46,861 nt of DNA from an uncultured delta proteobacterium (GCA_903911225.1 CAIWCT010000230.1:1-46861); one strand, 5' to 3'. Shown: positions 23,672 through 45,738, counted from the first letter of the stretch. Translations and numbers: made by a program. Notes: generated by a model from the sequence alone, not told the origin.

Positions 23672-25417
23672 TTATTTACTGCTTAATTTGAAAAGAGCTT
23701 TTTTGTAATATTCGTTTGAGGTTACGGGCATTATTTTTAATACTTCCCTCCACCTTTTTGTTGCTGCATCCATATTGCCGATATCCTCATATACAAGGCC
23801 TTCCTGATAGAGTATCCGCGCTTTTTCTCCAAGATTTTTTTCTATTTCAAACATGAGCTCATTTGTATTTTTATAGCCCGGATAAACCTCGACAACCTGC
23901 TTGAACGACATCAGGGCTTTATCATAATCCTGCAAATTATAGTATTTAAGACCTGTATTATAGCTTGCTTCAACTCCACTTAGAAGTTTTGCTTTTATAT
24001 CCTCGACCCTCCTTTGTGCCCGGGTAGTTTCATCACAGGGAACATTCAAAGCAATAATATTATTAAATGCTTTGAGGGCCTGATAATACTCATTCTGTGC
24101 AAAAAAAGCTTCTCCCCTTGCATAGAAATCCTTCACATCGCTAAGATACTGCGCCTTTCTTTTTTCCTCTTCTTCAAGCTTTGCCTTAAATGCATTTTGC
24201 TCGGCATCAATTTTTTGAAGAAGGCCGTTAATTTCACTGTTCGAGGGATCAAGATTTTTTGCTTCTGCAAGCAAACTGCGGGCTTCAGCATATTTTCCGC
24301 TTTGACAAAAACCGGCTGCCTCTGCGAACAGAGCCTTTATTTTGTCTTTCTTTTCTTCCAGCTTTAATTTTTCACGGTTTTCTTTGTCAACAGCAATCTC
24401 GCACTGTTTTACATAGCTAAGGGCTTCAGTATCTGTTGGTGAAATATCAAGCACCGCCTGGAACCTGGTTAATGCCTCTCGATAATTATTTTTTTCAAAA
24501 TAGTCCTTTCCCCGCTTCATGTGTAAATTTATTTCCCTTTGCTTCCCCGGCTCAACCATAACTGCGCCGGTTTTTTCTGCTAAAGAGAGCGTTTCATCCT
24601 GTCCAGACTTCATTTCCATCGATGTAAACAGCACAGCCAGAAAGACAACAAAAAGCAGCGCAGGGAGTCCAATAGTTATGAACTTTCTATTAAGCCCTGT
24701 GCTGAAAGGCTTTGATCCTGCAAGAGTTTTCTGCTGCGATCCACTTAGTGTGACCTTAAGCGTTGTGTCGCCTATTTTGATAATCGCATTTGTTGCCAGT
24801 GGAGCAAATTTTTTTATGATTTTACCGTTTACTTCAATACTGTTGTTTTCATTTAAATTTTCCACGCTGTAGCTTTTTCCGCTGCGGCTGATTTGCATAT
24901 GTTCACGCGACACGGCCTGGTCTTCAATCACAAGATCACAACCCGGTTTGCGGCCTATAATCATAGAATCGCAAAACGATTTCGACAGTCCTTTTGCCTT
25001 CCCTGCTATGACTTCAATTCTGTTTTCTCCCTGCATTGCAGCGCTTCTTGGCATAAAAACTGTGCCACCAGGAGAACCCGGCTGCTGTACTGACTCGCTT
25101 CGTACAGCAGATGAAGAATCCTGAACAGCTGGCTGCTCAATGCGAATTGTAAAGTCACAAAGCTTGATGGTGTCTCCACCTGCCAGCACTGTCTCAGCTA
25201 TCTTCTGGCCATTAACCATTGTTCCAGCGGGGCTTTGAAAATCTTTGATTTTCCACTGCCCTGCTTCAAAATATATCGTACAATGGTTGCGTGACAACCT
25301 AGAGTCGTCCAGCATGAGATTGTTCTGGCGAGACCGCCCGATATTGAGCGTTTCATGATCCTGAAGGTCAATATCCTTAAAAGGCAGCTCGTTTTTTAAA
25401 ATTTTTAAGCTAATCAT
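23672..25417 (-). CDS. Double-FHA membrane protein with TPR domain
   Basis: This 581-residue protein has FHA domain 1 at about 1-90 (LNIGRSRQNNLMLDDSRLSR, N-H-C-T) and FHA domain 2 at about 130-215 (IIGRKPGCDLVIEDQAVSRE, H-M-Q-I). A single TM segment spans about 232-252 (FITIGLPALLFVVFLAVLF). The C-terminal part carries TPR units (REALTRFQAVLDISPTDTEA, YYQALKAFNNIIAL, YDKALMSFKQVVEVYPGYKN). FHA domains bind phosphothreonine; the N-terminal placement suggests they are cytoplasmic, with the TPR region across the membrane. It is the last gene of the minus-strand Tad operon, five bases after the previous FHA gene. The kinase-FHA gene at 44563 is the obvious candidate partner. Confidence 0.85.
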   Translation of the reverse strand: MISLKILKNELPFKDIDLQDHETLNIGRSRQNNLMLDDSRLSRNHCTIYFEAGQWKIKDFQSPAGTMVNGQKIAETVLAGGDTIKLCDFTIRIEQPAVQDSSSAVRSESVQQPGSPGGTVFMPRSAAMQGENRIEVIAGKAKGLSKSFCDSMIIGRKPGCDLVIEDQAVSREHMQISRSGKSYSVENLNENNSIEVNGKIIKKFAPLATNAIIKIGDTTLKVTLSGSQQKTLAGSKPFSTGLNRKFITIGLPALLFVVFLAVLFTSMEMKSGQDETLSLAEKTGAVMVEPGKQREINLHMKRGKDYFEKNNYREALTRFQAVLDISPTDTEALSYVKQCEIAVDKENREKLKLEEKKDKIKALFAEAAGFCQSGKYAEARSLLAEAKNLDPSNSEINGLLQKIDAEQNAFKAKLEEEEKRKAQYLSDVKDFYARGEAFFAQNEYYQALKAFNNIIALNVPCDETTRAQRRVEDIKAKLLSGVEASYNTGLKYYNLQDYDKALMSFKQVVEVYPGYKNTNELMFEIEKNLGEKARILYQEGLVYEDIGNMDAATKRWREVLKIMPVTSNEYYKKALFKLSSK

Positions 25418-25422
25418 TTCCG

Positions 25423-26346
25423 CTAACGCCCCTCCAGTTCCTTGATCTCTTTTAAAGAATTAACATAACGTTCATCTTCCTTGTTGCGCGACATTTCGCT
25501 AACAATTATAAATTCTTTAACTGCCTCACTATATCTCATGTATTTCTTATGCAATAGAGCATTTTGATAATGTTTATCAATGAGCTCTTCAAGTTCGCCT
25601 TCAGCTTTCAATAAACGTTTGCGCGCATTAGCGTTCTCCCTGTCAAGGGTGAGGGCATGATCCCATTCATCAATAGCCTTCCCCATATTGCCAGCATCGT
25701 AAAAGAAAACGCCATTTCGGTAATGCTCTGCTGCTTTATCACGATCTGCAGTTAAATTATCCGGTGATGATTCAGACTCGGATTGAGCTGTAGTTGTTGT
25801 GGCAGTAACGGCAGGGAATGGCGCCTTCGGCTTTTCCCCTTTGCGGGAGTCTGGATTATCAGCCACCAGATGATTGGGCTTGTTTATCGCAGGTGACGCA
25901 ATGTCAGACTTTGTACGCATACTATATGAAGTAAAGATGATGAAAAGCAACATTAGCAACGCTGCTGCAATAAGCATTTTAAAATTTCTTGATTTTTTTT
26001 GATGTCCGGAGGTGCCATTGCCTTCGACGACAAAAACCGTAGCATCTATTTGAAACTGCCCCCCCGGTTTTAGGCTTACTTTATCGATGGGGGTCCCAAG
26101 CACCAGGGTTGTATTGTTTTTATTCAAGTTCTCAAGGATAAGTCCTTTGGCTTCGACAGTTAGCATGGCATGCTTGCCGGAGGCATGAATATTTTTTGCA
26201 TCAATTGAAATTTCACACGTTTGAGACCGCCCAATTATATATTGAAATCCACGGTACAACGAAAACTGCTTTCCGGCATCTATTCCCTGCACTATTTTAA
26301 GCCTGTAGTGTGGCTGAAGTTTGTAAATCGTTTGATCATTATTCAT
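25423..26346 (-). CDS. FHA membrane protein with TPR domain
   Basis: This 307-residue protein has an N-terminal FHA domain (about 15-105: FQYIIGRSQTCEISIDAKNI, H-A-S-G-K-H-A, LENLNKNNTTLVLG), one TM at about 118-135 (MLIAAALLMLLFIIFTSY), a Ser/Thr/Pro linker, then TPR-like helices (AEHYRNGVFFYDAGNMGKAI, DEWDHALTLDRENANARKRL). The chosen ATG at 26346 has AGAGG nine bases upstream; an ATG three codons earlier would be too close to it. The start overlaps the stop of the preceding gene by eight bases. It is a shorter sister of the double-FHA protein encoded next. Confidence 0.82.
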   Translation of the reverse strand: MNNDQTIYKLQPHYRLKIVQGIDAGKQFSLYRGFQYIIGRSQTCEISIDAKNIHASGKHAMLTVEAKGLILENLNKNNTTLVLGTPIDKVSLKPGGQFQIDATVFVVEGNGTSGHQKKSRNFKMLIAAALLMLLFIIFTSYSMRTKSDIASPAINKPNHLVADNPDSRKGEKPKAPFPAVTATTTTAQSESESSPDNLTADRDKAAEHYRNGVFFYDAGNMGKAIDEWDHALTLDRENANARKRLLKAEGELEELIDKHYQNALLHKKYMRYSEAVKEFIIVSEMSRNKEDERYVNSLKEIKELEGR

Positions 26347-27754
26347 GAGCGGCATCCTCTAAAACAAAAAGCGCCACTGCGGGCCTGTCCTGCACAGCCG
26401 ATTGCCTGACAATATAGGCTTTCCCAGAAGGTGCGATTACTATACCCTCATTTTTGCAATCGTCATCAATCATGGAAGAAATAATTTTGACTGTCTGGGG
26501 GTCATCGAATGCTTCAAGCAGATGGATTCCCGGCTTGATCTTTAAACAGCACAGTATATCAACAAACTCCTGGCTGTACTGCTCTATGGCAAACATATCC
26601 CTGTTAATGATGCACCAAGGCGCTTCAAGCTGCGCAAGGTTGCTCATGATGATGCGGGGTGATCCCATGCCGGGAGCCACAGATGGCTGATGCCTGTCGT
26701 GCAGATCTATCGTGCCCTGCGCCAATGGCTGCTCTTCTTTGCATCCAGAATTCATAAAAAGCAACCTGTTAAAGGTAGTTACAAGGTTGTTAATTGCGCC
26801 TTCACTGGAGGTGAAATTGATATGCTGTTTTCTTTCTTTCATGGCAATGTTTACATCTTCATCAAGTTTTTGCAGCGGCATAGAGAATAGCCTGAGCAAA
26901 AAAACCCCCAGATATATCCCTGCTGCAAGAAGAGCAAGAAGAATCAGGTTGGCATATACTTTTATAACACTAACGCCTGCTTTTTCGGCGCGTTCCGCAT
27001 TAAACCCCACAACTGCGGCGCCCTTTGCAACGCGCACTCCTTTTATCGGGTATATAAAAATTTTCTCTCCCGCATTGCCTTGCGCACTCTTTTCCTTGCC
27101 CTCGCGCAAAGCAGCGACCACTTCTGGGACATCAAGAAGTGTCCCCATTTTTTCTTCTGGCGCCAGAATTTTTCCTAAGTCGTCTACAATGAATGCATAC
27201 AGAATGCCCTCTTCACCGGTTATGGAATCAACGGTGACAGAGCCTGACTCCAAAAGGTATTTATTTGTATCAGCCAAATATTTTGCATACATGCGCCCGC
27301 GTTTTAAAATTTCTTCACTCTGAAAAGATTTAACAGAACTGCTTAATGGAAAAAAGACGGCTGCAAAGGTCAGGATAATCAGTATAACCAGCGCTAAGGA
27401 TAGTGTCAGCTTCATGTTTACAAGAGCAAAGCCCTCCAATAAGTTCTGGTATTTCCCCGGAGTCTGCTGCTTTTCAAAAGTTCCCTGTATGCCGAAGGGG
27501 GCAATTTCAAGATCGAAGTTCTGCCCAAAATTTTTCTCTCGTATCTTTTCCCCATCGCAAAAAACCCCGTTCATGCTGTCACAGTCGCTGATTGTTGCTC
27601 CTTCGGGATGCACCGTAAGCAGGGCATGTTTTTTAGACACACTTGCATGGGCAAGAACAATATCTGCCTGCTCACGGCCAATAACGTAACTCCCCGGCGC
27701 AAGCAGGAGGGTTCTGTCCAGAATCCCATTGTTTTTTATTTGAACACGCAGCAT
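26339..27754 (-). CDS. FHA-sensor membrane protein with HAMP/PAS-like C-terminus
   Basis: This 471-residue protein has an N-terminal FHA domain at about 10-85 (YVIGREQADIVLAHASVSKK, H-A-L-L, SMNGVFCDGEKI). TM1 spans about 116-137 and TM2 about 270-292 (NLILLALLAAGIYLGVFLL). Between them lies an extracytoplasmic sensor of roughly 130 residues (GEEGILYAFIVDDLGKILAP). After TM2 come a HAMP-like linker and a PAS-like domain (LEAPWCIINRDMFAIEQYSQ ... GIVIAPSGKAYIVRQ). No kinase, cyclase or receiver output is present, so it may sense a signal and tune the Tad machine through FHA-phosphopeptide binding. It is eight bases after tadC. Confidence 0.8.
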   Translation of the reverse strand: MLRVQIKNNGILDRTLLLAPGSYVIGREQADIVLAHASVSKKHALLTVHPEGATISDCDSMNGVFCDGEKIREKNFGQNFDLEIAPFGIQGTFEKQQTPGKYQNLLEGFALVNMKLTLSLALVILIILTFAAVFFPLSSSVKSFQSEEILKRGRMYAKYLADTNKYLLESGSVTVDSITGEEGILYAFIVDDLGKILAPEEKMGTLLDVPEVVAALREGKEKSAQGNAGEKIFIYPIKGVRVAKGAAVVGFNAERAEKAGVSVIKVYANLILLALLAAGIYLGVFLLRLFSMPLQKLDEDVNIAMKERKQHINFTSSEGAINNLVTTFNRLLFMNSGCKEEQPLAQGTIDLHDRHQPSVAPGMGSPRIIMSNLAQLEAPWCIINRDMFAIEQYSQEFVDILCCLKIKPGIHLLEAFDDPQTVKIISSMIDDDCKNEGIVIAPSGKAYIVRQSAVQDRPAVALFVLEDAAHE

Positions 27755-27761
27755 ACGGTTG

Positions 27762-28643
27762 TTATCTGTAAATATATTTTAAAATAAATGGCCCCAAAGT
27801 TATAATGAAAATGATCGGGAATATGCATACGATCAGTGGCAGCAAAAGTTTTTGTGAAATAACAGCGCCCGCCTGTTCAGCCCGCATGAAGCGCTCCTCC
27901 CTCATGCGAATCGCCTGCGCCTTGAGCACTTCAGAGATACTTGATCCCATTTTCTCGGACTGAATAAGGATTGTGGTAAAAGCGTACAGCTCCTGGAGGT
28001 CTACCCGTTTTCCCATGTGCAGAAGCGCCTCCTCCCGCGACCGGCCAAGTCTGATGTTTTTGTTCATAAGGTAAAGCTCAGCAACAAAAGGGTCATTATC
28101 CCGCATGTACATATCGCACACCCTTTTGGAGGCGGCATTGAAGTCAAGGCCGGCAGCTACCGCCAGGGCAAGGGTATCGACCACATCAGGCATGCTGGCA
28201 AGAATTTCAGCCTGGCGAGCTTTTTTTCTTTCATAGATCCAAAGATACGGATAGGCAAAGCCGGCAACAATTCCGACAAGAGAAATAGGAATACTTTTAA
28301 ACAGGATGGCCAGCATAACAGCAAACAACAGGGCCGTGGTTATCTGAAACCCAATAAAGTCATCACCCGTAAACTCCTTTTCCATGCCTGCGGTTACCGC
28401 ATACTGTTCAACTGTAGTTCTGTACCCTGATAGGGGAAGCAGTTTAATAAGGGGTATGAAAATCTCAAAAAAAGGTCGAAACAAGTTAACAAACCTTGCG
28501 CCCTCTCCGAGGTTAACTTCCTCATCCTGAAGCTTTTTTTTAGCGTCCTGCTCCTTTTTTTTCGGAAGCATGCTATAGACGATATAAAATGCCGCGCCGA
28601 AAAAAAGAGGAAAGCCCATTACTTTTAAAAGGGTTGTTGTCAT
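27762..28643 (-). CDS. tadC: TadC-type inner-membrane platform protein (T2SF family)
   Basis: This 293-residue protein has a T2SS-F domain: DEL-type core MPDVVDTLALAVAAGLDFNA, ELYLMNKNIRLGRSREEALL, QELYAFTTILIQSEKMGSSI and LKAQAIRMREERFMRAEQAG. Hydrophobic segments lie near the N-terminus, around residue 110-145 and at the C-terminus (LLPLIVCIFPIIFIITLGPF). TadB and TadC form the inner-membrane platform that couples the cytoplasmic ATPase to pilin assembly. ATG at 28643 has GGAG seven bases upstream and was preferred to ATG at 28658. It is separated from tadB by about 6.4 kb containing rhs, a thioredoxin-like gene and a GspE-type ATPase, which is unusual. Confidence 0.85.
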   Translation of the reverse strand: MTTTLLKVMGFPLFFGAAFYIVYSMLPKKKEQDAKKKLQDEEVNLGEGARFVNLFRPFFEIFIPLIKLLPLSGYRTTVEQYAVTAGMEKEFTGDDFIGFQITTALLFAVMLAILFKSIPISLVGIVAGFAYPYLWIYERKKARQAEILASMPDVVDTLALAVAAGLDFNAASKRVCDMYMRDNDPFVAELYLMNKNIRLGRSREEALLHMGKRVDLQELYAFTTILIQSEKMGSSISEVLKAQAIRMREERFMRAEQAGAVISQKLLLPLIVCIFPIIFIITLGPFILKYIYR

Positions 28644-28678
28644 AAAATCTCCATACATTCAAACTTTTGATACTCTTA

Positions 28679-30388
28679 TCATATGTCAACGGTTACCCGC
28701 AGCACCTCTTCAATTGTCGTGCACCCTGCAGCAAGTTTTTTTAAGGCCGCTTCTCGGAGCGTCGTCATGCCGCCTTCTATTGCAGCGGCCTTGAGCACGC
28801 TTGACGGCTCCCTGGCAAGAATGAGCTCAATCATTGGGTCGCTTATCTCAAACAGTTCGTAGATGCCTTCCCGTCCATTGTATCCTGTGCCGGAGCAGTC
28901 AGCGCATCCCCTGGCGCGATAGTACGTAGCGCCTTTATGCGCAAGCCCCAGAGCCGTCAGACTTTTCGGGTCTGGCGCATACTCTTCTTTGCACCGGTTG
29001 CAGAGCTTGCGCATAAGGCGCTGGGCAATAATGCTTATCTGCGCCGAAGCAGCCAGATAGGGGGGTATTCCCATATTCAACAGGCGGTTGACCGCACTTG
29101 CAGCATCATTGGTGTGCAGGGTGCTGAGCACCAGATGGCCTGTCATCGCTGATTTCAGGGCAATATCCGCAGTCTCGACATCCCGTATCTCTCCGACCAT
29201 AATAATGTCGGGATCCTGCCGGAGAAATGATTTCAGCGCATCCTTAAACGTCAGCCCGTTCTCGCTCGTGCAGCTTACCTGCGTAATGCCTTTAAGCTTA
29301 TATTCAACCGGGTCCTCTGCCGTGATAATGTTGACAGAGTCCGTGTTCAGCCTGTTCAGAATGGCGTACAGCGTTGTTGTCTTACCGCTTCCCGTCGGTC
29401 CGGTGAGCAGTATCAGCCCATTGGGCCTTTCGATAATTCTCTGTAGCCGGGCATCCTCTTTCTCATCCATCCCGAGATCATTGAGGCTTATTCTTTCCTT
29501 GCCCCGGTCAAGAAGGCGCAGAACAATTTTTTCGCCGTATATGGAGGGAAGCGCCGAGACTCTCAAATCAATATCCCGGTCCTTAATAAGGCTGTAGCTG
29601 ATGCTGCCATCCTGGGGCATGACGGTTTCATCAAGGCTCATGCCCGAAATAAGTTTAAGGCGTGGAATAAGCGCTTCACGCAAGATAACCGGGCATGACC
29701 ATGCGGTTTGCAAAACACCGTCTATACGGTAGCGCACTTTGAAAGCATCCTCCTGGCATTCAAAATGCAAATCGCTCGTGTTTTTTGCCGCAAGGCTGTT
29801 AAGCATAAACTGCAAAAGCCGAATAACCGCAACGCTGGTAATAATCTCCATTACGTCGGCATTTGCCATCTTTATTTTTATTACTGCAGTCACCGCAGTA
29901 TCAATAAGCGTTTTCGCATCATCGGGCAGCCCATCCGACGTGGAAGCAGCATCCTCGCCGTACACTGATTTGATAGCCTCAATTATGCCTCTGGTATAAC
30001 AGCAGTAGGGTTTAATTCGTGAGCCCGTGACATATTCCATTCGCTTGATGCATGCCGCATCCGTGGGGTTAGACATCACCAGATGAACGACATTACCCAC
30101 ATGCTTTACGGGAAAAACTTTTTCCTTGAGCGCTATCGCAGCGGGCACAAGCTGTTTGATATGCTCCGTGAAATCATCTCCAAAAAAGACAATAGTCGGA
30201 TCAAGATAGGGAGCACCCGTTGCTTCCTCAAGCACTGCATTGGCTGTTGCAGCGTCGGTTTTGCCGCTCTCAAACATGCTGTCAGACAGAAGCCTGCCGT
30301 CTGCGGCGCAGGTCTCTATACACTGAATGCCCCGCGCACTAAAAGATTTTTCAATCTTTTCGTTCAAATATGTTATCGAATCTTCCAT
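28679..30388 (-). CDS. GspE/PilB-type secretion ATPase
   Basis: This 569-residue protein has an N-terminal GspE-N domain (about 40-150). The hexameric ATPase domain carries Walker A LTGPTGSGKTTTLYAIL (about 334), Asp box EDPVEYKLKGITQVSC, Walker B DPDIIMVGEIRDVETADIAL (about 394) and His box STLHTNDAASAVNRLLNMG. A tetracysteine zinc motif (CNRC ... CADCSG) sits at about 463-496. The zinc motif and GspE-N domain place it with type II secretion/type IVa pilus assembly ATPases, not with TadA. A second ATPase class inside a Tad operon suggests either a dedicated second motor or a hybrid machine. No GspF-like gene other than tadB/tadC, and no GspD/G, is nearby. Confidence 0.9.
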   Translation of the reverse strand: MEDSITYLNEKIEKSFSARGIQCIETCAADGRLLSDSMFESGKTDAATANAVLEEATGAPYLDPTIVFFGDDFTEHIKQLVPAAIALKEKVFPVKHVGNVVHLVMSNPTDAACIKRMEYVTGSRIKPYCCYTRGIIEAIKSVYGEDAASTSDGLPDDAKTLIDTAVTAVIKIKMANADVMEIITSVAVIRLLQFMLNSLAAKNTSDLHFECQEDAFKVRYRIDGVLQTAWSCPVILREALIPRLKLISGMSLDETVMPQDGSISYSLIKDRDIDLRVSALPSIYGEKIVLRLLDRGKERISLNDLGMDEKEDARLQRIIERPNGLILLTGPTGSGKTTTLYAILNRLNTDSVNIITAEDPVEYKLKGITQVSCTSENGLTFKDALKSFLRQDPDIIMVGEIRDVETADIALKSAMTGHLVLSTLHTNDAASAVNRLLNMGIPPYLAASAQISIIAQRLMRKLCNRCKEEYAPDPKSLTALGLAHKGATYYRARGCADCSGTGYNGREGIYELFEISDPMIELILAREPSSVLKAAAIEGGMTTLREAALKKLAAGCTTIEEVLRVTVDI

Positions 30389-30392
30389 AGGC

Positions 30393-30896
30393 TCAGTAAT
30401 TGCTCACGTTAAGTGTATAGCCATTTACGAACAGATACCGGAACTTGCCGCAATACTTGCCTCCTTCCAGCCCCAGCACATTCTTCATCAGCCACAGGTC
30501 AATATCATCGTTAAACTTAAGCAGGTCCTTTTCCTCCAGCGGTATGCCCCAGATCCGGTCTATCTCAATACCACCTTTATAAAGCACCACCGTGGGCAGC
30601 ATCTCAAGAGCATAGGGGCGCTCATCTGCACCTATCTGCCAGTGAAACCTGCAAAACTTTGCCGACTCGCCGTACTTCTGCGCAAAGTGTTCAAACCGCT
30701 TGTCCATGTCCTGGGATTGTACGTACTGGTTATTATAAAAAAGAACCAGCGCAAAACCACCGTATCCTGTAACCTCGCTTGCAAAGCTCCCGCTGTCTAT
30801 GCTGAGCGCCCCCGTCTGCACGGGCCGCACGGCCTGATGGGAGCAGGAGGCAAACATGAGTGAAACCGTAATCATCATGACAATGTATAAACGCAT
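30393..30896 (-). CDS. Thioredoxin-fold lipoprotein without CXXC
   Basis: This 167-residue protein has a lipobox (VSLMFASCSHQA). Residues of about 30-130 fit a thioredoxin fold: FALVLFYNNQYVQSQ, FEHFAQKYGESAKFCRFHW and the cis-Pro strand LEMLPTVVLYKGGIEIDRIW. The usual CXXC after the first strand is absent (N-N-Q-Y-V-Q instead), so it cannot act as a normal disulfide oxidoreductase. A chaperone or binding role is more likely. Two cysteines remain, at FCRF and KYCGKF. ATG at 30896 has AGGA eight bases upstream and was preferred to 30902. It lies 19 bp after rhs and four before the ATPase gene, so it may serve the Rhs protein or the machine. Confidence 0.65.
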   Translation of the reverse strand: MRLYIVMMITVSLMFASCSHQAVRPVQTGALSIDSGSFASEVTGYGGFALVLFYNNQYVQSQDMDKRFEHFAQKYGESAKFCRFHWQIGADERPYALEMLPTVVLYKGGIEIDRIWGIPLEEKDLLKFNDDIDLWLMKNVLGLEGGKYCGKFRYLFVNGYTLNVSNY

Positions 30897-30915
30897 ATGC
30901 ATTTTCCTATTACTG

Positions 30916-36304: not shown

Positions 36305-36419
36305 AAGTGTTCTACCCTGTTTAATTTCTTCGTAAAAAGTCACCCGTAGCGGCGGAAAATCGGAGTCCAGTTTTTTTAACGATATTGTGCACCTTTATTT
36401 TTTTTGAAATCTATTTATA

Positions 36420-36657: not shown

Positions 36658-38730
36658 TTAATTGGTCCAGAATATTTCCCGCGGGATAGTTATGCCCCTT
36701 TCTGTAAATTTCTCCAGACACCGCGGCACATAACCTGTCGAGGCAAAATTGCCGACTACCTTGCCGTCTTTCTCGCCCGTCTGTTCATAGGTAAAAACAT
36801 CGCCCATGGAAATAGCAGTTCCCTCCATTCCGGTAATTTCAGCGATCTGCATTATTTTTCTTGATCCGTCTTTATACCTGTTTAGATGAATAACAAGATC
36901 AATGGCGCCAATAATCTGCTCCCTGATTGCTTTTGACGGCAGCTCAAAACCTGCTAACATAACAAGTGTTTCCAGCCGCGAAAGCGCTTCCCTGCAATTA
37001 TTGGCATGTATTGTTGTCAGTGAGCCATCATGGCCGGTATTCATGGCTTGCAGCATGTCCAAAGCCTCTGCCCCCCTGCATTCTCCGACAACAATCCGAT
37101 CAGGCCTCATTCTGAGGCAGTTCTTTACCAGATCACGTATGGTTATATCGCCCTTTCCTTCAATATTGGGTGGGCGGGACTCAAGCGTTATAACATGGCG
37201 CTGCTTAAGCTGTAGCTCGGCGGAATCTTCAACAGTCACTATCCGCTCATCAGAGGGTATGAAGCTTGAAAGTATATTCAAAAATGTCGTCTTCCCGGTG
37301 CCTGTGCCGCCCGAAACCAAAATATTGAGCCTTGCCTGCACCGCCGCCTTTAAAAATTCCAAAATCTGTTTATTTGCGGTGCCCAACTGTATCAGCTCCG
37401 GAATGCCGATTCGGTCGCCCGCAAACTTTCTGATCGTAAGAGCCGCACCCTTGATGGCAAGGGGTGGGATAATGGCGTTCACCCGTGATCCATCCGCAAG
37501 CCGTGCATCTACCATGGGAGTGCTGGTGTCTATCTTCCGGCCGACAGGAGAAACAATCCTATTTATTATATTCATCAAATGCTGCTCAGAAAAAAATCTA
37601 TTTGGAATTTCTTCAATCTTCCCCTTTCTTTCAATATATATCTGGTCCCACCGGTTAACCATTATTTCTGATATGCTGGTATCAGCAAGAAGATCTTCCA
37701 GCGGGCCAAGGCCCAGCGCTTCCTGAAGCGCCTCCCTGAGAAGTTTATCGCGGAATTCTCTTGATGTGATTGTTGTTTCATTGTCGATAATTTCGACGAT
37801 TTTTTCTGAAACCCTGGCGTACAGCTCCTTCATCTTTTCCGGCGAATTCTGCACCTCCGTATCAATCTTCTTAAAGTCGATCGATTCAAGCAGTTTGCTG
37901 TGAATAATGGACTTGAGCTGATAGGTATCCTGAAGGGCTTCTATTTCATCGGGAAGCTGAGAGGGTGGCAATGAAGCCCCTGCAGAGGTGGCTACCTGCA
38001 GGTGATTAATAACTTCGAAAGTAAGAGTATCAAATGCCTTGGTAACCGGATGGCGGGGAAAATTTTGAGGATAGACACCCTCGGCCATCTTTGATGCGGC
38101 CTCGCTGTCATGGGGAATAGATACCGATAGATTTTTCCCCAGCTGCTGCTCAAGGAGCTCCTGGCTGATGCAATCGCTTTTACCAACCATGTTTGCAGCC
38201 AGCAGAATCATATCTTTTGTAAAATTTTTATTTCTGAGAAGCTTGAGGTCGTTTCGTGTCTGATGGATAGATAGAGAATCAGGCAGCACGGGAAGGATAA
38301 TCAGCGATGAAAGGTCAAAAATTTTCTCAACAATGGGGCTGTATTTTATTCCGATGTCCACAACAATAAAATCATATATCAGCCGAAGCTTTGTGAATAG
38401 CGCCTCGACTGACGCATTGTTTAAGCTATCATCGGCAAAACTATTGGTTCTTGACAGACAGAGGGCGTAAATACCTGATGAGTGTGGGGTGGCAAAGCTT
38501 TTCAAAAGGGCGGTGCTAATTTCCCCTGCTGCAGGAAAAATATTTTCCATGGACTTGATATCGTTTACATTCAGAAACTGCGCAATATCATTTGAAAAAG
38601 GCAGGCTGAAATCAATAAGCAGGACTTTTTTCTTTGTGTTCAAGTGAAGATCAACAGAAAGATTGACCGCGATGAAGCTTTTACCAACACCACCTTTTGA
38701 GCTATATATGGTTAGTATGTTGCCGACCAT
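36658..38730 (-). CDS. TadZ-TadA fusion: MinD-like domain joined to CpaF-type ATPase
   Basis: This 690-residue protein joins two Tad components that are usually separate. Residues of about 1-245 form a ParA/MinD-like TadZ (CpaE) domain with deviant Walker A YSSKGGVGKSFIAVNLS and F-I-V-V-D-I-G. Residues of about 275-690 form TadA/CpaF: GLGPLEDLLADTSISEIMVN, VNAIIPPLAIKGAALTIRKF, Walker A ILVSGGTGTGKTTFLNILSS (about 475), LRMRPDRIVVGECRGAEALD and GSLTTIHANNCREALSRLET. TadZ localises the machine to a pole and TadA powers pilin assembly, so the fusion would fix the motor to its landmark at 1:1 stoichiometry. The CpaE-type pseudo-receiver domain is absent. Start: ATG 38730 with GGAA upstream. Confidence 0.92.
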   Translation of the reverse strand: MVGNILTIYSSKGGVGKSFIAVNLSVDLHLNTKKKVLLIDFSLPFSNDIAQFLNVNDIKSMENIFPAAGEISTALLKSFATPHSSGIYALCLSRTNSFADDSLNNASVEALFTKLRLIYDFIVVDIGIKYSPIVEKIFDLSSLIILPVLPDSLSIHQTRNDLKLLRNKNFTKDMILLAANMVGKSDCISQELLEQQLGKNLSVSIPHDSEAASKMAEGVYPQNFPRHPVTKAFDTLTFEVINHLQVATSAGASLPPSQLPDEIEALQDTYQLKSIIHSKLLESIDFKKIDTEVQNSPEKMKELYARVSEKIVEIIDNETTITSREFRDKLLREALQEALGLGPLEDLLADTSISEIMVNRWDQIYIERKGKIEEIPNRFFSEQHLMNIINRIVSPVGRKIDTSTPMVDARLADGSRVNAIIPPLAIKGAALTIRKFAGDRIGIPELIQLGTANKQILEFLKAAVQARLNILVSGGTGTGKTTFLNILSSFIPSDERIVTVEDSAELQLKQRHVITLESRPPNIEGKGDITIRDLVKNCLRMRPDRIVVGECRGAEALDMLQAMNTGHDGSLTTIHANNCREALSRLETLVMLAGFELPSKAIREQIIGAIDLVIHLNRYKDGSRKIMQIAEITGMEGTAISMGDVFTYEQTGEKDGKVVGNFASTGYVPRCLEKFTERGITIPREIFWTN

Positions 38731-38957: not shown

Positions 38958-40406
38958 TCATTTTTGTTTTATATTTTCCTGCTCCTGCTTTTTAAATGAA
39001 TCATTGACTTTATCCCCAATTCCCTTGCCTGCTTCACTGCTGCTTGCAAGAATTCGGGGCGTCACAAAAATAAGGACCTCTTTTGTTTCGCTTTCCTGCC
39101 TGGTGCCTTTATTTGACTGAAACAGAGACCATCCCTTATTTGGTGGCGATTTGGAAAGAAGGCTTGCTTCTTTTTGCCCCATAAGACCGCCCAAAACAAT
39201 GCTGCTGCCGCTTTCCACGGTTAGCATGGTTTCAAGCTGGGTTGATCCTATTATGGGTGCGCCATTCGGGCCTTCTCCTGTAACCGTGCTAGACTCTATT
39301 TTTACAGGGCTGCTGATAGTGTTTATATTAATTACCGGGGAAAAATTCAGAGTGACCCCTACTTTCTTATACTCTGTCGACATTGTTCCGCCTTCCTGGG
39401 CGGTTGTAATAGGAAGTTCAGATCCGGCAAAAAAGTTGGCATTCCCGCCATTGGTTGTAATAAGGCTTTGCTGCATAAGCGTTCTGCCCTTACCGTCTTC
39501 CTGTATTTTTCTCATTTTCGGAAATAGATTCGAGATGGTCCCGGCAAGGCTCCCGGACAATGAAGGTGAAGAGCCTTTGCTGCCGCCGTATGTGCCGCCG
39601 CTTGCGAGGTCGCCGCCCGGATTCCAGGCAATGCCGATATCTTTCAAGGCATTCTTTTCAACCTCCATGACGGTAAGCGTCATTTCGATAATTCCCGTTT
39701 TTGCAGTCGCAGGGCCTGCGACTCTCTGGTCGATGTCAATGGCATTGGTGACATCCTGATTGAATGCAAGAGCTATTTTTTCAGCACGCTGCGCATCCTC
39801 GGGCTTGTAGACCTTCCCGGTGAGCACAAACTTGTCTTTCCCCGGCGTAACAGTAACACCGCCGAGGCCCTGTTTTTTGAGAGCGCCTTCGATTTCCGAC
39901 TTTACAATATTTTTCATAAGGGGGCTGATCGATACAAGGTTCACCACGCCCGGCATGCCGGCAACTATTTTATTTATTTTCTCCATGCCAGCATGGGTAA
40001 GAACCTCTCCCTCAACAAAAATACGCTGACCTGCAGTTCTGACCTGCACCCCTTCAATATCTTTCAGCATCTGCTGCAGTTCATAGGCAGTGGCATTCCC
40101 GCTGAGCACCGTAACCGCGCGCTCCACTCTATTGTTGCCGGAGCCCCAGACGATAACATTTGTCCGGCCTTCTTTTTTAGCATTTATGAGAAGCTCCTTA
40201 TCGCCGGTTTTTAGTGCAGCGCAGATTTCAGGATTGCCTGTTGCAATCTTTTCTATACTAAAATCAACCGTCATGACCTGACTTTTTCCCACAATAATTT
40301 CAATGCCTTCCATGGATGAATCCTGGCTGAAAACATGTGTTAAATTTGCCGCCATGAATGAACAGCATACAAGCAGAGCAGCTATAATGCGAAGAAAATA
40401 TTTCAT
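38958..40406 (-). CDS. cpaC: CpaC/RcpA-type secretin (Tad outer-membrane channel)
   Basis: This 482-residue protein has a signal peptide (LRIIAALLVCCSFMAANLTH). The N-terminal pilus/secretin domain has IIVGKSQVMTVDFSIEKIAT and LLINAKKEGRTNVIVWGSGN. Next come BON-like/N1 repeats with RIFVEGEVLTHAGMEKINKI and VTPGKDKFVLTGKVYKPEDA. The secretin domain (about 240-455) has EMTLTVMEVEKNALKDIGIA, VGVTLNFSPVININTISSPV, TMLTVESGSSIVLGGLMGQK and EVLIFVTPRIL. It forms the ring through which Flp pili or substrates cross the outer membrane. Strong AAGGAG start. No CpaD/RcpB-like gene is adjacent. Confidence 0.93.
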   Translation of the reverse strand: MKYFLRIIAALLVCCSFMAANLTHVFSQDSSMEGIEIIVGKSQVMTVDFSIEKIATGNPEICAALKTGDKELLINAKKEGRTNVIVWGSGNNRVERAVTVLSGNATAYELQQMLKDIEGVQVRTAGQRIFVEGEVLTHAGMEKINKIVAGMPGVVNLVSISPLMKNIVKSEIEGALKKQGLGGVTVTPGKDKFVLTGKVYKPEDAQRAEKIALAFNQDVTNAIDIDQRVAGPATAKTGIIEMTLTVMEVEKNALKDIGIAWNPGGDLASGGTYGGSKGSSPSLSGSLAGTISNLFPKMRKIQEDGKGRTLMQQSLITTNGGNANFFAGSELPITTAQEGGTMSTEYKKVGVTLNFSPVININTISSPVKIESSTVTGEGPNGAPIIGSTQLETMLTVESGSSIVLGGLMGQKEASLLSKSPPNKGWSLFQSNKGTRQESETKEVLIFVTPRILASSSEAGKGIGDKVNDSFKKQEQENIKQK

Positions 40407-40578: not shown

Positions 40579-41439
40579 TCAATATCGTGATTTCTGCGAT
40601 GCCCCCTGAATATCTATCCATGCAGGAGCTGATTTTGGGATTACAGTTTTTTCAATGCCCAGAAAGTCACGGGCTTTCAGCTGCGGCAGGCTCATAACCT
40701 TGCCTGTATCCCACCGGGAACGCAGAGATACGGAAATGGAGCCTATTTCCTGCGCAAGGTTCATTCGCTGAACATCATCAGGCTTTAGGGCAAGAGTAAG
40801 CGTCCGAAGGATGTTGCCGCTCTCAACGGGTTGCGATTTTCTAAAAAGGCTTCCGGGGGCACTCTGTTCTTTAGATGCTTCAGCCCCAGCCCCTTCTGCT
40901 TTTGATGATATACGGTTAACAGCTAAAACAAGAATATTTTCAAGAATTGTCTTTGTAAAGGTATCCTCGCTCTTGCTGCGGCCCTGCTCATACGACCCCA
41001 CTTCAAAGGTAGCCATGACATCAACATAGTCTCCAGGCTGAACAAGACCTGCCACTGCTGTGACCTCGGTTGCAGGGGAGGTGAAGGCCCGCATGTCTTT
41101 TGGAACCCTTGTAGCAATGCTTGCTGTCTCTGCCGACATGAGCATGGACTCTAGTATCTGAGTGTTTTTTAATATCGGAATAGAAACAAACCGGTCTGCG
41201 ATATCCGTTAGGTTTCCCGCCGCACCGGGCTGGACATATTTTTTAGGAATAATTTTTTCTTCGATATAGGTGTCATCAAGCCGCGTGCCAAGGGGAATAT
41301 CCTTTAAGGCGACAACAACCTTTATGGGTGTTGCAAGATCAAGGAGTTCTTTTTCTCTGCCTGAAATATAGGAAAAGACCATCATGAGCGCAAAAAGCGC
41401 CACGCCAAATGCTATGAGCAATGCTTTTTTATCCTTCAT
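40579..41439 (-). CDS. cpaB: CpaB/RcpC Flp pilus assembly protein
   Basis: This 286-residue protein has one N-terminal TM (ALLIAFGVALFALMMVFSYI). A SAF domain follows (VVVALKDIPLGTRLDDTYIE, KKYVQPGAAGN), then an RcpC domain (VTAVAGLVQPGDYVDVMATF, TFTKTILENILVLAVNRISS, TLTLALKPDDVQRMNLAQEI, SVSLRSRWDTG). RcpC/CpaB is a periplasmic protein that stabilises or gates the secretin; the SAF domain may bind peptidoglycan or carbohydrate. ATG 41439 has GAGG just upstream; GTG 41445 is possible. The gene follows a TadE-like gene by 14 bp. The 172-bp gap to cpaC contains short ATTCTGAATT-type repeats. Confidence 0.9.
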   Translation of the reverse strand: MKDKKALLIAFGVALFALMMVFSYISGREKELLDLATPIKVVVALKDIPLGTRLDDTYIEEKIIPKKYVQPGAAGNLTDIADRFVSIPILKNTQILESMLMSAETASIATRVPKDMRAFTSPATEVTAVAGLVQPGDYVDVMATFEVGSYEQGRSKSEDTFTKTILENILVLAVNRISSKAEGAGAEASKEQSAPGSLFRKSQPVESGNILRTLTLALKPDDVQRMNLAQEIGSISVSLRSRWDTGKVMSLPQLKARDFLGIEKTVIPKSAPAWIDIQGASQKSRY

Positions 41440-41453
41440 GTTCACCTCAAAAA

Positions 41454-41876
41454 TTATTGTATTAGTTGAAATACTTCATCTCGGCTTGATGCTCTCCCGC
41501 CATTTCTGTACCGGTTTGGAAATCGATCTGAAAACCGTTCGGGAAGACCTTCTTCACGATAGCTGCCGGTGTATCCGCTGAGCATTTGTTCACGGCGCAA
41601 TAATCCTGATCCAAGTATTTCTTTCATGATGCCCGAAATCTCCACTTCGACAAGACCTCTTGTTTCAACAAGATGAAATGCGCCGAAAGACTCCGTATCA
41701 ATTTTATATCGCAGTGCATACCAATTCGTCTGCTCGCATTGTATCATTTGGTCGATGAATTCATAGGTTAGCAGTAGGAATATAAGAACACACACCATAT
41801 AAGGAAGCATAAGAGCAAATTCTACGGTGGCTGCCCCCCGCTGGTTTTTTATAAGTTTTAAAATAGTACCTGCCAT
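41454..41876 (-). CDS. TadE-like pseudopilin 1
   Basis: This protein of about 140 residues has the TadE pattern. A short basic leader ends in NQRG, followed by the cleavage-type motif AATVEFALMLP (Glu at +5, Phe at +6) and a hydrophobic helix YMVCVLIFLLLTYEFIDQM. The C-terminal part is soluble and Arg-rich. TadE and TadF are pseudopilins processed by the prepilin peptidase and needed for Flp assembly. The start is uncertain: ATG 41876 or GTG 41888, neither with a strong ribosome site. The nearest upstream gene is separated by repeat-bearing sequence, so it may have its own promoter. Confidence 0.8.
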   Translation of the reverse strand: MAGTILKLIKNQRGAATVEFALMLPYMVCVLIFLLLTYEFIDQMIQCEQTNWYALRYKIDTESFGAFHLVETRGLVEVEISGIMKEILGSGLLRREQMLSGYTGSYREEGLPERFSDRFPNRYRNGGRASSRDEVFQLIQ

Positions 41877-41974
41877 AAATGCTTTCACTGAAAAATATTT
41901 TTTTATAAATTTTCAGGCACCCTGTTAATTAGAACAATATCCTTTTTACTATAGACGGCTTATCTATTCAAAAA

Positions 41975-42093: not shown

Positions 42094-42120
42094 GAACAAC
42101 ATTGGTTTTAATTGATATGG

Positions 42121-42176: not shown

Positions 42177-42178
42177 AA

Positions 42179-43069
42179 TTAAAGGGTGTCTGAAATTAAA
42201 ACAGGCCGGTACTCTGGCCGACATTCAAAAATATTTCCACCGGCGGGCTTGGCAGCGGCCCTGGCTGTGATTGTTGGATTCACCGCAATGGCAGTATCAA
42301 AAACACGACTGCCAAGAACCAATCCCTCTATATCGAGTGCAAGCTCTACGGCTACATATGTCATGCTGCTAGATTTTTCCAATCGCTCGTATGCTTTATA
42401 GTGATCACTTTCGACCTCTTTTCTGTGGGCCAAATGATTTTCGCTGCCGTCAGGGTCGGGGCCGTATGCATTACGGGCATGAGGGTCTTTTTCCCAGTAA
42501 TAAGCTTCAACCATACAATTTTCGCAGTGGGAATCATAGTAGTCATAATTTATTTTTTTTGTTTTCGTAGAACTGAAGACAGCCAGCCCCCCCCCGCCTG
42601 GAACATAAAGCTGTTCAAGCCTGCTTTCGGGCAGATTGATTTGTTTTATCGTGTTGGCAAGATTTTTCAGCATTGCACTTTTTCCGTACAGCCGATTCGC
42701 ACTTTGTTGATACTGGAAAATATTTTTCAAAACATCATTGTAAAAATCAATACACTGCAAGGCTTCTTTATCATCATGCCAGATCGTAGTGTTTTTTTTC
42801 ATTATGGTCTCCAGGTTTTTCAATTCCATCTTATAATCGTAGTTAAGATCAGCGATTTCATTGAGACCTGCCGCCTGGACGCTTGCAGCAGCAAGGGCGC
42901 AGGTGTTTGCTGTAATTTGAAGTCTGATTTTAGCATATATGAGCTGGCCGATACTTGCTACAAGCACCACCATAAGGCACATAACAGGGATTAAAAAAGC
43001 AATAAGAACGGAGATTGATCCTTTTTCTGATCCAGGATGGTTGCCGGGCCTTATATTAATTATCGTCAT
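42179..43069 (-). CDS. TadG-like pilus assembly protein
   Basis: This 296-residue protein has an N-terminal TadE/G-like membrane segment (EKGSISVLIAFLIPVMCLMV, VLVASIGQLIYAKIRLQITA) and a 240-residue soluble domain of unrecognised fold, probably periplasmic. The Ser-Ile-Ser-Val lead resembles the pseudopilin motif but Leu replaces the +5 Glu, as expected for TadG-type proteins that are not assembled like pilins. A Cys-x2-Cys pair (HCENCMVEAYYW) may bind metal or form a disulfide. ATG 43069 was chosen because it overlaps the previous stop by 14 bases; an upstream ATG would overlap more. Confidence 0.75.
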   Translation of the reverse strand: MTIINIRPGNHPGSEKGSISVLIAFLIPVMCLMVVLVASIGQLIYAKIRLQITANTCALAAASVQAAGLNEIADLNYDYKMELKNLETIMKKNTTIWHDDKEALQCIDFYNDVLKNIFQYQQSANRLYGKSAMLKNLANTIKQINLPESRLEQLYVPGGGGLAVFSSTKTKKINYDYYDSHCENCMVEAYYWEKDPHARNAYGPDPDGSENHLAHRKEVESDHYKAYERLEKSSSMTYVAVELALDIEGLVLGSRVFDTAIAVNPTITARAAAKPAGGNIFECRPEYRPVLISDTL

Positions 43070-43511
43070 TATCAGGATCCAGTTCCGCAAATACATCAAT
43101 TTGCTTTAAAAGCGTAAAACTGCCTGAACCCGACGGATTATAAATATTGTTGAGGTCAATGGGAAGGTCGAGCAGCTCCTTTCGAAAACATATGGTAATG
43201 CCCTTCAGTGTTTCTGTTGCATCTCCGTTTTTAAAAACACGAGAAGGATAGGCGCCTGCAATTTTGTATGCAGATGCTTGAGCCTCACTATCTTTGCCGA
43301 CAGCATATTTTTGTGAAGCTGCAAAGGCTGCAAATGACAGCTGCTCATGCGCAAGAAAAATGCCGGCAAACTCCATAAAAGCGACAAAGAAAAAGAACAC
43401 AAAAAGCATTGCAAACGCAAATTCAACCAACACTGCGCCACGCACCCCCCAGGCAGGAGGTGTGAAGGTTTCTTTTCGTCTACTTAAACGAACCTTGATG
43501 CAATGCATCAT
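43056..43511 (-). CDS. TadE-like pseudopilin 2
   Basis: This 151-residue protein has a basic leader ending WGVRG, then AVLVEFAFAMLFVFFFFVAF with Glu at +5 and Phe at +6, the standard TadE cleavage and N-terminal helix pattern. A soluble domain follows (FLAHEQLSFAAFAASQKYAV, VFKNGDATETLKGITICF). It overlaps the TadG-like gene, so the two are translationally coupled. ATG 43511 was chosen; a TTG nine codons upstream is possible. It pairs with TadE-like 1 as the minor pseudopilins of the machine. Confidence 0.8.
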   Translation of the reverse strand: MMHCIKVRLSRRKETFTPPAWGVRGAVLVEFAFAMLFVFFFFVAFMEFAGIFLAHEQLSFAAFAASQKYAVGKDSEAQASAYKIAGAYPSRVFKNGDATETLKGITICFRKELLDLPIDLNNIYNPSGSGSFTLLKQIDVFAELDPDNDDN

Positions 43512-43538
43512 ACATACCCGGTTCCAGTAGGGGCACAA

Positions 43539-43833: not shown

Positions 43834-44076
43834 CTATTGACCTTTAGAAGTAAGATAAGTCTTAACTTGCGCAATGGCAGTTGTAAAAAAATCCTTCAAG
43901 GGGTCATTCATAGCAGTTGCAGCACCGATTACCAAGACGGTTATAACGCCAACCAACAGTGCATATTCAACAGTAGTGGCGCCTTTTTCATTTTTTAAAT
44001 AGTTTCGAGAATCGGAAATAATCAACTGGCTCTTCACATAGGACTTCACACATGCGTTAAAAAAATTCTTTTTCAT
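43834..44076 (-). CDS. flp: Flp/Fap-type major pilin
   Basis: This 80-residue prepilin has a 32-residue leader ending NEKG and a mature chain that begins ATTVEYALLVGVITVLVIGA. Gly at -1 and Glu-Tyr at +5/+6 are the hallmark of Flp pilins cut by TadV/CpaA prepilin peptidases. The mature part is 48 residues: one hydrophobic helix and a short polar tail (DFFTTAIAQVKTYLTSKGQ). A very strong AAGGAGG ribosome site fits abundant expression of a structural subunit. It is the most likely filament subunit of this Tad machine. Confidence 0.92.
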   Translation of the reverse strand: MKKNFFNACVKSYVKSQLIISDSRNYLKNEKGATTVEYALLVGVITVLVIGAATAMNDPLKDFFTTAIAQVKTYLTSKGQ

Positions 44077-44093
44077 TTGTTGCCTCCTTCTGG

Positions 44094-44303
44094 TTATGGA
44101 TATGTCTGTAAGAGTTTGAGGAATTTGTTAAAAACATCCAATGACATCCTCGTAAATATTTCCAAAACTCCCAGCATGATGAGTGCGGCAATAATCATGC
44201 TAAAGGCGTATTCAACACTTATTGCCCCCCGCATATTTAAAAGAGCAATTTTATTTTTTTTTAAAATACCAAAGCAATGGCACTTTTTAAAGCGTAATAA
44301 CAT
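44094..44303 (-). CDS. Second Flp-like (pseudo)pilin
   Basis: This 69-residue protein has a basic leader ending LLNMRG, then AISVEYAFSMIIAALIMLGV with Glu-Tyr at +5/+6, the Flp-type processing pattern. The tail is MSLDVFNKFLKLLQTYP. It is 17 bp upstream of the main pilin gene. ATG 44303 gives a leader of about 25 residues; ATG codons at 44351 and 44396 would give much longer leaders. The helix differs from the main pilin, so it could be a minor or tip pilin. Confidence 0.72.
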   Translation of the reverse strand: MLLRFKKCHCFGILKKNKIALLNMRGAISVEYAFSMIIAALIMLGVLEIFTRMSLDVFNKFLKLLQTYP

Positions 44304-44562
44304 ATAAATACATCCAGCATCAAGCAGTTTATTTTTTATAAAATAATTCATAATATATTTTGCATATTGCCTAAAACAGTTGTGATAAGTCAACAAAAAA
44401 ACAATAAAAATATTTTGTAAAAATTTGAAATTCGTTTAATGAAAGGGAAATTGCTCAAACAAATTTCTACCCGCTGTAATAATTATATTGATTTCAGAAT
44501 TTAATTCAATAAAATAGTATTATAAAATTTGCAAAACAATAAATTGGAACGGAATATTCACA

Positions 44563-45738
44563 GTGGAAAAAACAGAAAGCAATCTTGTCGGTTTGATGCT
44601 CGACCAGTATGAAATAAGCTCCTTTATCGGGAAAGGGGGTATGGGGGAGGTTTATAAAGCCCGGGATACTGCTTTGAACCGAGATGTGGCCATCAAGGTT
44701 ATCACTTCAAAGCTTGCCTGCGAAGCAGCCTTGATTAAACGATTCAAGCGCGAGGCGCATATGGCCGCGAGCCTTGAACACAGTAATATTATCCCTATTT
44801 ACACGATTGGCATGCAAGATACCATGCACTATATCGTGATGCGGTATGTCAATGGAGAAACGCTGCGAAATCTTATTAATTGCACGGGACATCTTCCGCT
44901 AAAACGCATTGTGGAAATCTTGAGACAGCTTGCTGAAGCCTTGAGCTATGCCCACTCAAAAAACATTATTCACCGGGATATTAAACCATCGAACATAATG
45001 ATCGGCCACAACGATTTTGTTACCTTGATGGACTTCGGAATCTCCAAGCCGTCCCAGTGTAACAGTTTTGATGGCAGTATGGATGCAACCTGCGCTGATA
45101 TCCTCGTTGGAACTTTTGAGTACATGGCGCCTGAACAGTTTACCGGCGGACCAGCTACAAGCTCTTCAGATATTTATGCTTTGGGAGTGGTTGTTTATGA
45201 AATGCTGGCCGGGCGTGTTCCCTTCCCCGGCCTTACACCTGTTGCAGTTTCACATGGCCATGTCTACGAGCAGCCGCCATCTCTCCTGAACCTAAACCCG
45301 CAGCTTTCCGCTGAAACTGAACAGATTGTCCTGCAATGCCTTAACAAGCACCCGGATCAGCGCTATCAAAACGCCTCGGAATTTTACTCTGCTCTGAAAG
45401 CCACAATCATGATGGATGGAGCCACGGAACCAGCCTGGACGGATAATTTAAAACTGGTTCTGGACGACGGGCAGTTCTATAAAATTAAGCCCGGCGTAAT
45501 GAAGATTGGCAGGACAGATGAAAATGAGATCATGGTTAATGATCAGGGGGTATCCCGCTACCATGCTGAAATCAGACACAACGGCAGCAGCCTTGAGATT
45601 ATTGATCTTGGCAGCACGAACGGCACCTTCGTTAACGGCCAGCAACTCACGGCTCATATTCCACGGCAGCTTAGCCGTGACTCTAAAATCTGTCTGGGCA
45701 TGAAGATTTGCATGATTGTCAAGCAGGATGATGCGTGA
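44563..45738 (+). CDS. Ser/Thr protein kinase with C-terminal FHA domain
   Basis: This 391-residue protein has a PknB-type kinase domain at about 14-275: GKGGMGEVYKARD, catalytic Lys in VAIKVI, HRDIKPSNIM, DFGISKP and GTFEYMAPEQF. An FHA domain follows at about 298-388 (KIGRTDENEIMVNDQGVSRY, H-A-E-I, LGSTNGTFVNGQQL). It has no TM segment, so it is cytoplasmic. The start is GTG. It is transcribed away from the flp genes across a 166- to 259-bp AT-rich divergent region that must hold both promoters. With three FHA proteins at the far end of the tad operon, it is the natural kinase for phosphothreonine signalling in the machine. The activation loop is long (SFDGSMDATCADILV). Confidence 0.93.
   Translation: MEKTESNLVGLMLDQYEISSFIGKGGMGEVYKARDTALNRDVAIKVITSKLACEAALIKRFKREAHMAASLEHSNIIPIYTIGMQDTMHYIVMRYVNGETLRNLINCTGHLPLKRIVEILRQLAEALSYAHSKNIIHRDIKPSNIMIGHNDFVTLMDFGISKPSQCNSFDGSMDATCADILVGTFEYMAPEQFTGGPATSSSDIYALGVVVYEMLAGRVPFPGLTPVAVSHGHVYEQPPSLLNLNPQLSAETEQIVLQCLNKHPDQRYQNASEFYSALKATIMMDGATEPAWTDNLKLVLDDGQFYKIKPGVMKIGRTDENEIMVNDQGVSRYHAEIRHNGSSLEIIDLGSTNGTFVNGQQLTAHIPRQLSRDSKICLGMKICMIVKQDDA

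Follow-up and report, generated by a model that had tools for sequence, protein, structure and literature searches.

A conserved FHA triad in a Tad locus that resembles those of predatory bacteria

Introduction

Type VI secretion in Pseudomonas aeruginosa is under kinase–FHA control of the PpkA–Fha type. For tight adherence (Tad, type IVc) pili, the published links to FHA domains that we found are confined to the Kil system of Myxococcus and the class III CpaF motors, and it was for Kil that Seef et al. proposed FHA-based signalling, by analogy with the type VI machine (PMC8460266); FHA signalling in a Tad machine is thus not a new idea. Kil-like systems have been placed only in the predatory Myxococcales, Bdellovibrionales and Bradymonadales (PMC8460266). 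In Bdellovibrio bacteriovorus, the hit locus comprises bd0109 (RHS), bd0110 (TadB), bd0111 (TadA), bd0112 (RcpA), bd0113 (RcpC) and flp genes (PMC3818213, PMC5430801), and TadC (bd0470) shares an operon with bd0473 (FHA) and bd0474 (two FHA domains and TPR) (PMC6561027, PMC12034629). Bd0474 has one transmembrane segment with TPR beyond it (PMC12034629). A TadC mutant does not attach to prey (PMC6561027, PMC12034629); a Bd0474 mutant attaches and can neither kill nor round it (PMC6561027). Here we analyse a Tad cluster bearing four FHA proteins and a Ser/Thr kinase in a 46,861-nucleotide stretch from an uncultured delta proteobacterium (GCA_903911225.1 CAIWCT010000230.1:1-46861), called the window throughout.

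Results

The window is the whole contig G000:C230 of a 4.86-Mb metagenome-assembled genome (G000, 85.5% complete). On the minus strand of 23672–45738 it encodes, 5′ to 3′, Flp, TadE, TadG, a TadF-like protein, CpaB, CpaC, a TadZ–TadA fusion (TadZA), TadB with TPR, an RHS protein, a thioredoxin-like lipoprotein, a PilB/GspE-type ATPase, TadC and three FHA proteins (FHA1, FHA2 and FHA3, together the triad), with a kinase-FHA gene divergent from the cluster at its pilin end. An earlier reading made from the sequence alone had described four FHA-bearing proteins and one kinase bracketing a Tad cluster, and every part that it named was recovered; the RHS, thioredoxin-like and second ATPase genes are additions to its list. 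Five FHA domains are spread over the four proteins. Four of the nine FHA genes of the genome thereby lie within 22 kb of 4.86 Mb (0.45% of its length), a clustering expected by chance with a probability of ~5e-8 for a given stretch and ~1e-5 over all stretches. A second Tad locus of the same genome (L031, 10.8-kb contig), in which TadZ and TadA are separate, provides an internal control and has no FHA gene. The triad and the platform gene that it adjoins are as follows.

27762..28658, minus strand: TadC inner-membrane platform protein (Pfam T2SSF), adjoining the triad in 11/13 genomes
26339..27754, minus strand: FHA1 (Pfam FHA 8.7e-12), with a predicted cytoplasmic FHA domain, two transmembrane segments and a C-terminal PAS-like part
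25423..26355, minus strand: FHA2 (Pfam FHA 6.4e-9), with an FHA domain, one transmembrane segment and a C-terminal tail resembling the tails of its orthologs
23672..25417, minus strand: FHA3 (Pfam 1.8e-32), with two FHA domains, one transmembrane segment and TPR beyond it, of the Bd0474 type

Searching 395 genomes of the phylum for FHA3 at E < 1e-18 returned only G000 and three relatives (G304, G242 and G123), all of which carry a TadZ–TadA fusion. The full-length fusion was matched in G304 and G242 among 297 phylum genomes (54–55% identity, residues 3–689), and G123 has one too. The order in G304 is kinase, small lipoprotein, Zn-ribbon FHA protein, two Flp, TadE, TadG, TadF, CpaB, CpaC, TadZA, TadB, a repeat-rich secreted protein, thioredoxin-like protein, PilB-like ATPase, TadC, FHA1, FHA2 and FHA3; G242 has the same layout to the limit of its contig. 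TadZA, TadB, TadC and FHA1–3 are all present in G123, with no PilB-like ATPase at its triad locus. A second, very divergent TadA adjoins FHA3 in that genome.

A wider comparison of 80 named Tad loci located TadZ–TadA fusions in Bdellovibrionota, one organism labelled 'Deltaproteobacteria', WOR-3, Omnitrophota, Eremiobacterota and unnamed bacteria. The FHA1–FHA2–FHA3 order holds in 9/9 Bdellovibrionota-type genomes, with products of 524–585, 327–432 and 666–830 residues, respectively, the last containing two FHA domains. TadC lies just upstream of the triad in seven of these nine, although in L134 the contig edge leaves only its end, and it was not found beside the triad in L133 or L138; TadC and FHA1 are separated by a small gene of 117–182 codons in most of these genomes. 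Together with the four phylum genomes, the triad order is therefore kept in 13/13 and TadC adjacency in 11/13, across at least two phyla. The sequence-only reading had proposed recurrence of the gene set in related genomes as its own check, and for the three FHA genes and the tad core this is what we find. In a tree of the ATPases, the window groups with G304 and G242 (Shimodaira–Hasegawa-like approximate likelihood-ratio test, SH-aLRT, 99) and then with G123 (94), and the Bdellovibrionota form a clade (95); a single origin of all TadZ–TadA fusions is possible.

Fusion of FHA to TadA itself is a second architecture, often with further FHA proteins nearby. FHA proteins besides the motor occur at 8/23 TadZA loci, 8/26 FHA–TadA loci and 2/59 plain loci (P 4e-4 and 9e-4, respectively, against plain loci, which holds for loci that are phylogenetically non-independent and in some cases incomplete); one of the two plain loci is the second TadA inside the G123 triad locus. 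We conclude that the FHA module almost certainly belongs to this Tad type as an integral and conserved component. That the window instead holds an ordinary adhesion pilus that gained FHA genes by recent local rearrangement is hardly credible: the locus is patchy, being absent from other sampled members of the same family, and it may have moved horizontally, but its gene order recurs in more than one phylum, the triad is co-distributed with the TadZ–TadA fusion, and the window genes other than RHS have counterparts in the same order in G304.

The predicted topology of FHA1 is also conserved, with two hydrophobic segments flanking a periplasmic loop in 13/13 genomes (~135 residues in the window), a sensor-like arrangement. 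The PAS-like part that had been read into this protein is supported by PAS matches in the C-terminal part of most scanned orthologs (best 2.6e-9), although the window protein itself gives no PAS match. Of the two FHA proteins said to carry TPR, FHA3 does so, whereas FHA2 has no Pfam match to TPR. FHA3 has a single predicted transmembrane segment in 9/13, with TPR beyond it. A T-[VM]-[FLI] threonine motif is found in the FHA3 linker of some orthologs only.

The Arg of the GR motif, the SxxH motif and an Asn of FHA domains contact phosphothreonine. We read these residues from a hidden Markov model alignment of the 13 genomes and counted them by eye. All four (Arg, Ser, His and Asn) are kept in every FHA1. 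In FHA2 the Asn is kept in 13/13, with the Gly after it replaced in three genomes including the window, and the Arg and His are kept too. The two domains of FHA3 differ, the pocket Asn being retained in 0/13 of the first (FHA3a) and 10/13 of the second (FHA3b). Because loss of the Asn is tolerated in FHA3a yet the pocket residues are kept elsewhere, this pattern suggests selection for phospho-binding outside FHA3a. On the alignment, FHA1, FHA2 and FHA3b are likely phosphothreonine readers and FHA3a probably is not one; that at least one FHA domain of the module reads phosphothreonine we regard as reasonably probable.

The FHA proteins could alternatively be structural scaffolds of the Tad base, like the FHA-fold YscD-type ring proteins of type III secretion systems, in which case phosphothreonine would not be needed and the kinase would be incidental. 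Their FHA domains give matches to the YscD cytoplasmic model too, the Asn of FHA3a is gone in all 13 genomes, membrane anchors plus TPR fit such a role, and G123 retains the triad although it has no Hanks kinase. A pure scaffold sits less well with a pocket that never varies in FHA1 and hardly does in FHA2 and FHA3b, when the same set has lost the Asn of FHA3a, and the sensor-like topology and PAS-like part of FHA1 would be unusual for one. We consider this scaffold role possible but doubtful.

The gene at the pilin end encodes a kinase and is followed by a convergent gene.

44563..45738, plus strand: Hanks-type Ser/Thr kinase with a C-terminal FHA domain (Pkinase 2e-54, FHA 2.9e-18)
45765..46733, minus strand: SH3-domain secreted protein (Pfam), convergent with the kinase gene

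The kinase motifs VAIK, HRD, DFG and APE are intact, the protein has no transmembrane segment and is soluble, and its own FHA domain has a canonical pocket (SRYH and STNGT). A kinase with intact catalytic motifs is thus encoded together with FHA proteins whose phosphothreonine pockets are intact, a linkage kept only in G304 and G242. The G304 kinase combines in one protein a transmembrane segment (identified by eye) and an SH3 domain beyond it, and the separate SH3 protein and kinase of the window may be functionally linked. Window and G304 kinases are reciprocal best hits and occupy matching ends of their loci. In G242 the gene runs across a contig break: the locus contig starts within the SH3 tail and contig C135 ends within that kinase. 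No phosphatase gene was found in the window.

Several points weigh against a locus kinase acting on an FHA module tied to this Tad type. Five Omnitrophota genomes carry TadZA without a single FHA match, and fusion and triad are therefore separable. Between window and G304 the kinase domains are only 34% identical, and the two kinases have different architectures and orientations; G304 and G242 belong to one genus, making them essentially one independent confirmation of the linkage. None of the nine Bdellovibrionota-type genomes has a kinase adjoining the triad, and G123 (99% complete) has the triad and no Hanks kinase in its genome even at E 10. With its FHA1 and FHA2 pockets intact, either the mark in G123 comes from another kinase class or the pocket serves otherwise. 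A kinase lies near 5/49 FHA-type Tad loci and 2/59 plain ones (P 0.24, not significant), and we reject kinase co-occurrence as a general rule for FHA-type Tad loci. For the kinase, the co-occurrence check consequently holds at the pilin ends of the window, G304 and G242, and fails for G123 and the Bdellovibrionota-type genomes.

The triad might instead be phosphorylated by kinases encoded elsewhere, the flp-side kinase-FHA protein serving another pathway and its position being accidental. The window's genome has seven Hanks kinase matches, most triad loci lack a kinase, and the window kinase is soluble, divergent and distant in sequence from that of G304. The reciprocal best hits at the same locus end in G304 and G242, where the Zn-ribbon FHA protein is also present, speak for linkage, and we estimate from kinase counts that chance would place a kinase within 10 kb in each of the two lineages with a joint probability of ~0.2%. 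We judge this alternative unlikely. Whether the adjacent kinase controls the Tad machine in this lineage is, in our assessment, an even question, and lineage-specific kinase gating is plausible. We found no published report of threonine phosphorylation in these systems, and no paper joining FHA, tight adherence and a threonine kinase.

The Zn-ribbon FHA protein between kinase and flp in G304 and G242 has a degenerate FHA pocket and a conserved linker motif, TIFEPLG/TVFEPLG, which we take to recall the threonine motif of GarA-type FHA proteins. Elsewhere in the phylum, Tad loci L041 and L045 are each preceded by a gene for an NtrC-type regulator with an FHA domain and followed by one for a Ser/Thr kinase, which may be an independent kinase–FHA–Tad wiring at the level of transcription.

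L169:12269-13000 (approximate) and L172:968-1588: Zn-ribbon FHA protein
L041:1096-2931 and 14078-16267: NtrC-type FHA regulator and Ser/Thr kinase
L045:3281-4669 and 12464-14251: NtrC-type FHA regulator and Ser/Thr kinase

The remaining cluster genes identify the machine as a Tad (type IVc) system, with a TadA/CpaF ATPase, TadB, TadC, secretin, Flp pilin, CpaB and TadE/F/G; the minor pilins were assigned by weak Pfam matches backed by G304 orthologs.

44094..44396, minus strand: Flp-type prepilin with an RG/AISVEY motif (GAISVEY), no Pfam match; true start probably near 44303; Flp genes at the matching place in G304 and G242
43056..43538, minus strand: TadE-like minor pilin (weak Pfam match; G304 ortholog)
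42179..43099, minus strand: TadG-like minor pilin (Pfam Tad 4.3e-9; G304 102 bits)
41454..41888, minus strand: TadF-like minor pilin (weak Pfam match; G304 41 bits)
40579..41445, minus strand: CpaB/RcpC (Pfam 1.6e-24; G304 253 bits)
38958..40406, minus strand: CpaC/RcpA secretin (Pfam; G304 365 bits)
36658..38730, minus strand: TadZ–TadA fusion (Pfam), MinD/ParA-like N-terminal half with KGGVGKS and CpaF/TadA C-terminal half
35081..36343, minus strand: TadB inner-membrane platform protein with extra TPR (Pfam; G304 338 bits)
30916..34770, minus strand: RHS/YD-repeat protein (Pfam RHS 1.3e-78), directly downstream of tadB
30393..30902, minus strand: thioredoxin-fold lipoprotein without CxxC (Pfam 0.0088, NCBIfam 1.9e-7)
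28679..30388, minus strand: second motor ATPase, PilB/GspE type (Pfam; PilB the best model, below its curated cut-off)

The core had been called complete. Motor, platform, secretin, pilins and CpaB are indeed present; a prepilin peptidase (TadV/CpaA) was not found in the window. Two prepilin peptidases are encoded elsewhere in the genome, on contigs C343 and C103, one of them at the second Tad locus. The Tad operon of B. bacteriovorus reportedly lacks this gene as well (PMC5430801), and its absence from the window is not decisive as to Tad membership. The minus-strand operon was likewise confirmed in part. Intergenic gaps from RHS through FHA3 (the last seven genes) are −17 to 20 bp, whereas most genes upstream of RHS are separated by 172–555 bp; a single operon is for this reason firm for the RHS-to-FHA3 part only, and extra promoters upstream of the RHS gene are possible.

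Both the thioredoxin-fold lipoprotein (106 and 122 bits) and the second ATPase (~497 bits) are kept in the G304 and G242 clusters. The MshEN domain of this ATPase is matched in its second part only, and with the first part unmatched we make no claim of cyclic di-GMP control through it.

The RHS gene occupies the slot right after tadB that RHS genes also fill at seven TadZA loci (Bdellovibrionota-type), the slot of Bd0109-type proteins, a likeness of position. It is one of only two genes with RHS matches in the window's genome; none was found in G304, G242 or G123 or seen at the 59 plain Tad loci, and a nucleotide search with the gene in 20 genomes matched only the window itself. Its product carries C-terminal DxNGDG and PPVKYAP repeats, with no recognizable toxin domain at the C terminus. 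Large RHS genes are also found downstream of FHA–TadA loci in Massilia (L085) and Telluria (L110). In G304 and G242, the slot between TadB and the thioredoxin-like gene holds a secreted low-complexity protein.

L170:917-2017 (approximate) and L172:8895-10691: secreted protein with KAPEAKDI-type repeats (G304 and G242)

Outside the Tad cluster, window positions 15093–22567 carry a group of CsgG/LpoB/FlgT-like envelope proteins, within which two tandem paralogous small lipoproteins lie at 21787–22567.

Discussion

We give about even weight to a reading in which the window encodes a Kil/Bdellovibrio-type Tad machine with a built-in FHA regulatory module. FHA1 would sense a cue in the periplasm by way of its loop and its PAS-like part. 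In the cytoplasm, the FHA domains of FHA1, FHA2 and FHA3b would bind to phosphothreonine carried by Tad motor or platform proteins, or by one another; across the membrane, FHA3 would hold partner proteins with its TPR part. FHA binding would in turn control whether the pilus is assembled or fires once contact is made. The phosphates would come, in this lineage, from the pilin-end kinase (kinase-FHA in the window, kinase–transmembrane–SH3 in G304 and G242), and in other lineages from a distant kinase or another source. The reading is built on the gene module, its predicted topology, the conserved pockets and the kinase linked to the nearest orthologous loci, from which we infer phosphothreonine binding, kinase substrates and gating. 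The original proposal, that threonine phosphorylation gates the Tad machine, gains from the conserved FHA module and the post-contact role of Bd0474 (PMC6561027), and is weakened by a kinase linkage that is local only. A further step is less probable: that this is a predation-type Tad system outside known predators, with two motor ATPases, in which the kinase of the locus and three FHA readers in the membrane, one of them a transmembrane sensor, form a phosphothreonine relay licensing post-contact firing.

The window and its three relatives extend the FHA-triad form to a phylum outside the predatory orders in which Kil-like systems are described, and to our knowledge predation is not known in this phylum. 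The conserved triad defines a module around the uncharacterized predation protein Bd0474, and the pocket data separate likely phosphothreonine readers from a probable non-reader. Where a kinase is linked to the locus, it provides a candidate enzyme for the question of how contact sets off Kil-type pili, and pilus switching in this Tad type becomes testable.

Among known systems, P. aeruginosa type VI secretion, a contact-triggered machine, resembles the window in being encoded together with a kinase and an FHA protein (as cited in PMC8460266), but the machine is another one, and the kinase architecture and the membrane FHA triad differ. Class III CpaF (FHA–CpaF, mostly in betaproteobacteria) likewise links FHA to a Tad motor (PMC12019362); there the FHA domain is fused to the motor, whereas the window motor carries TadZ and the FHA domains reside in separate membrane proteins. 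The Kil system of Myxococcus xanthus is a Tad-like machine with several FHA proteins, yet KilF has its own N-terminal FHA domain where the window motor has TadZ, and its genes lie in two clusters with a single ATPase described, against two ATPases in the window. Bdellovibrio resembles the window in the CpaB–CpaC–TadA–TadB–RHS order (bd0113 to bd0109) and in the grouping of TadC with FHA genes, one of which encodes a TPR protein with two FHA domains (bd0470–bd0474), a layout also seen in B. qaytius and other Bdellovibrionota. FHA3 corresponds to Bd0474 by domain order and position, the loci compared being those of B. qaytius and another Bdellovibrio rather than HD100. The window lacks the small gene between TadC and FHA1 and adds the PilB-type ATPase, the thioredoxin-like lipoprotein and the pilin-end kinase; and where Bdellovibrio keeps its Tad genes in two places (bd0109–bd0119 and bd0470–bd0475), the window unites both halves in one locus.

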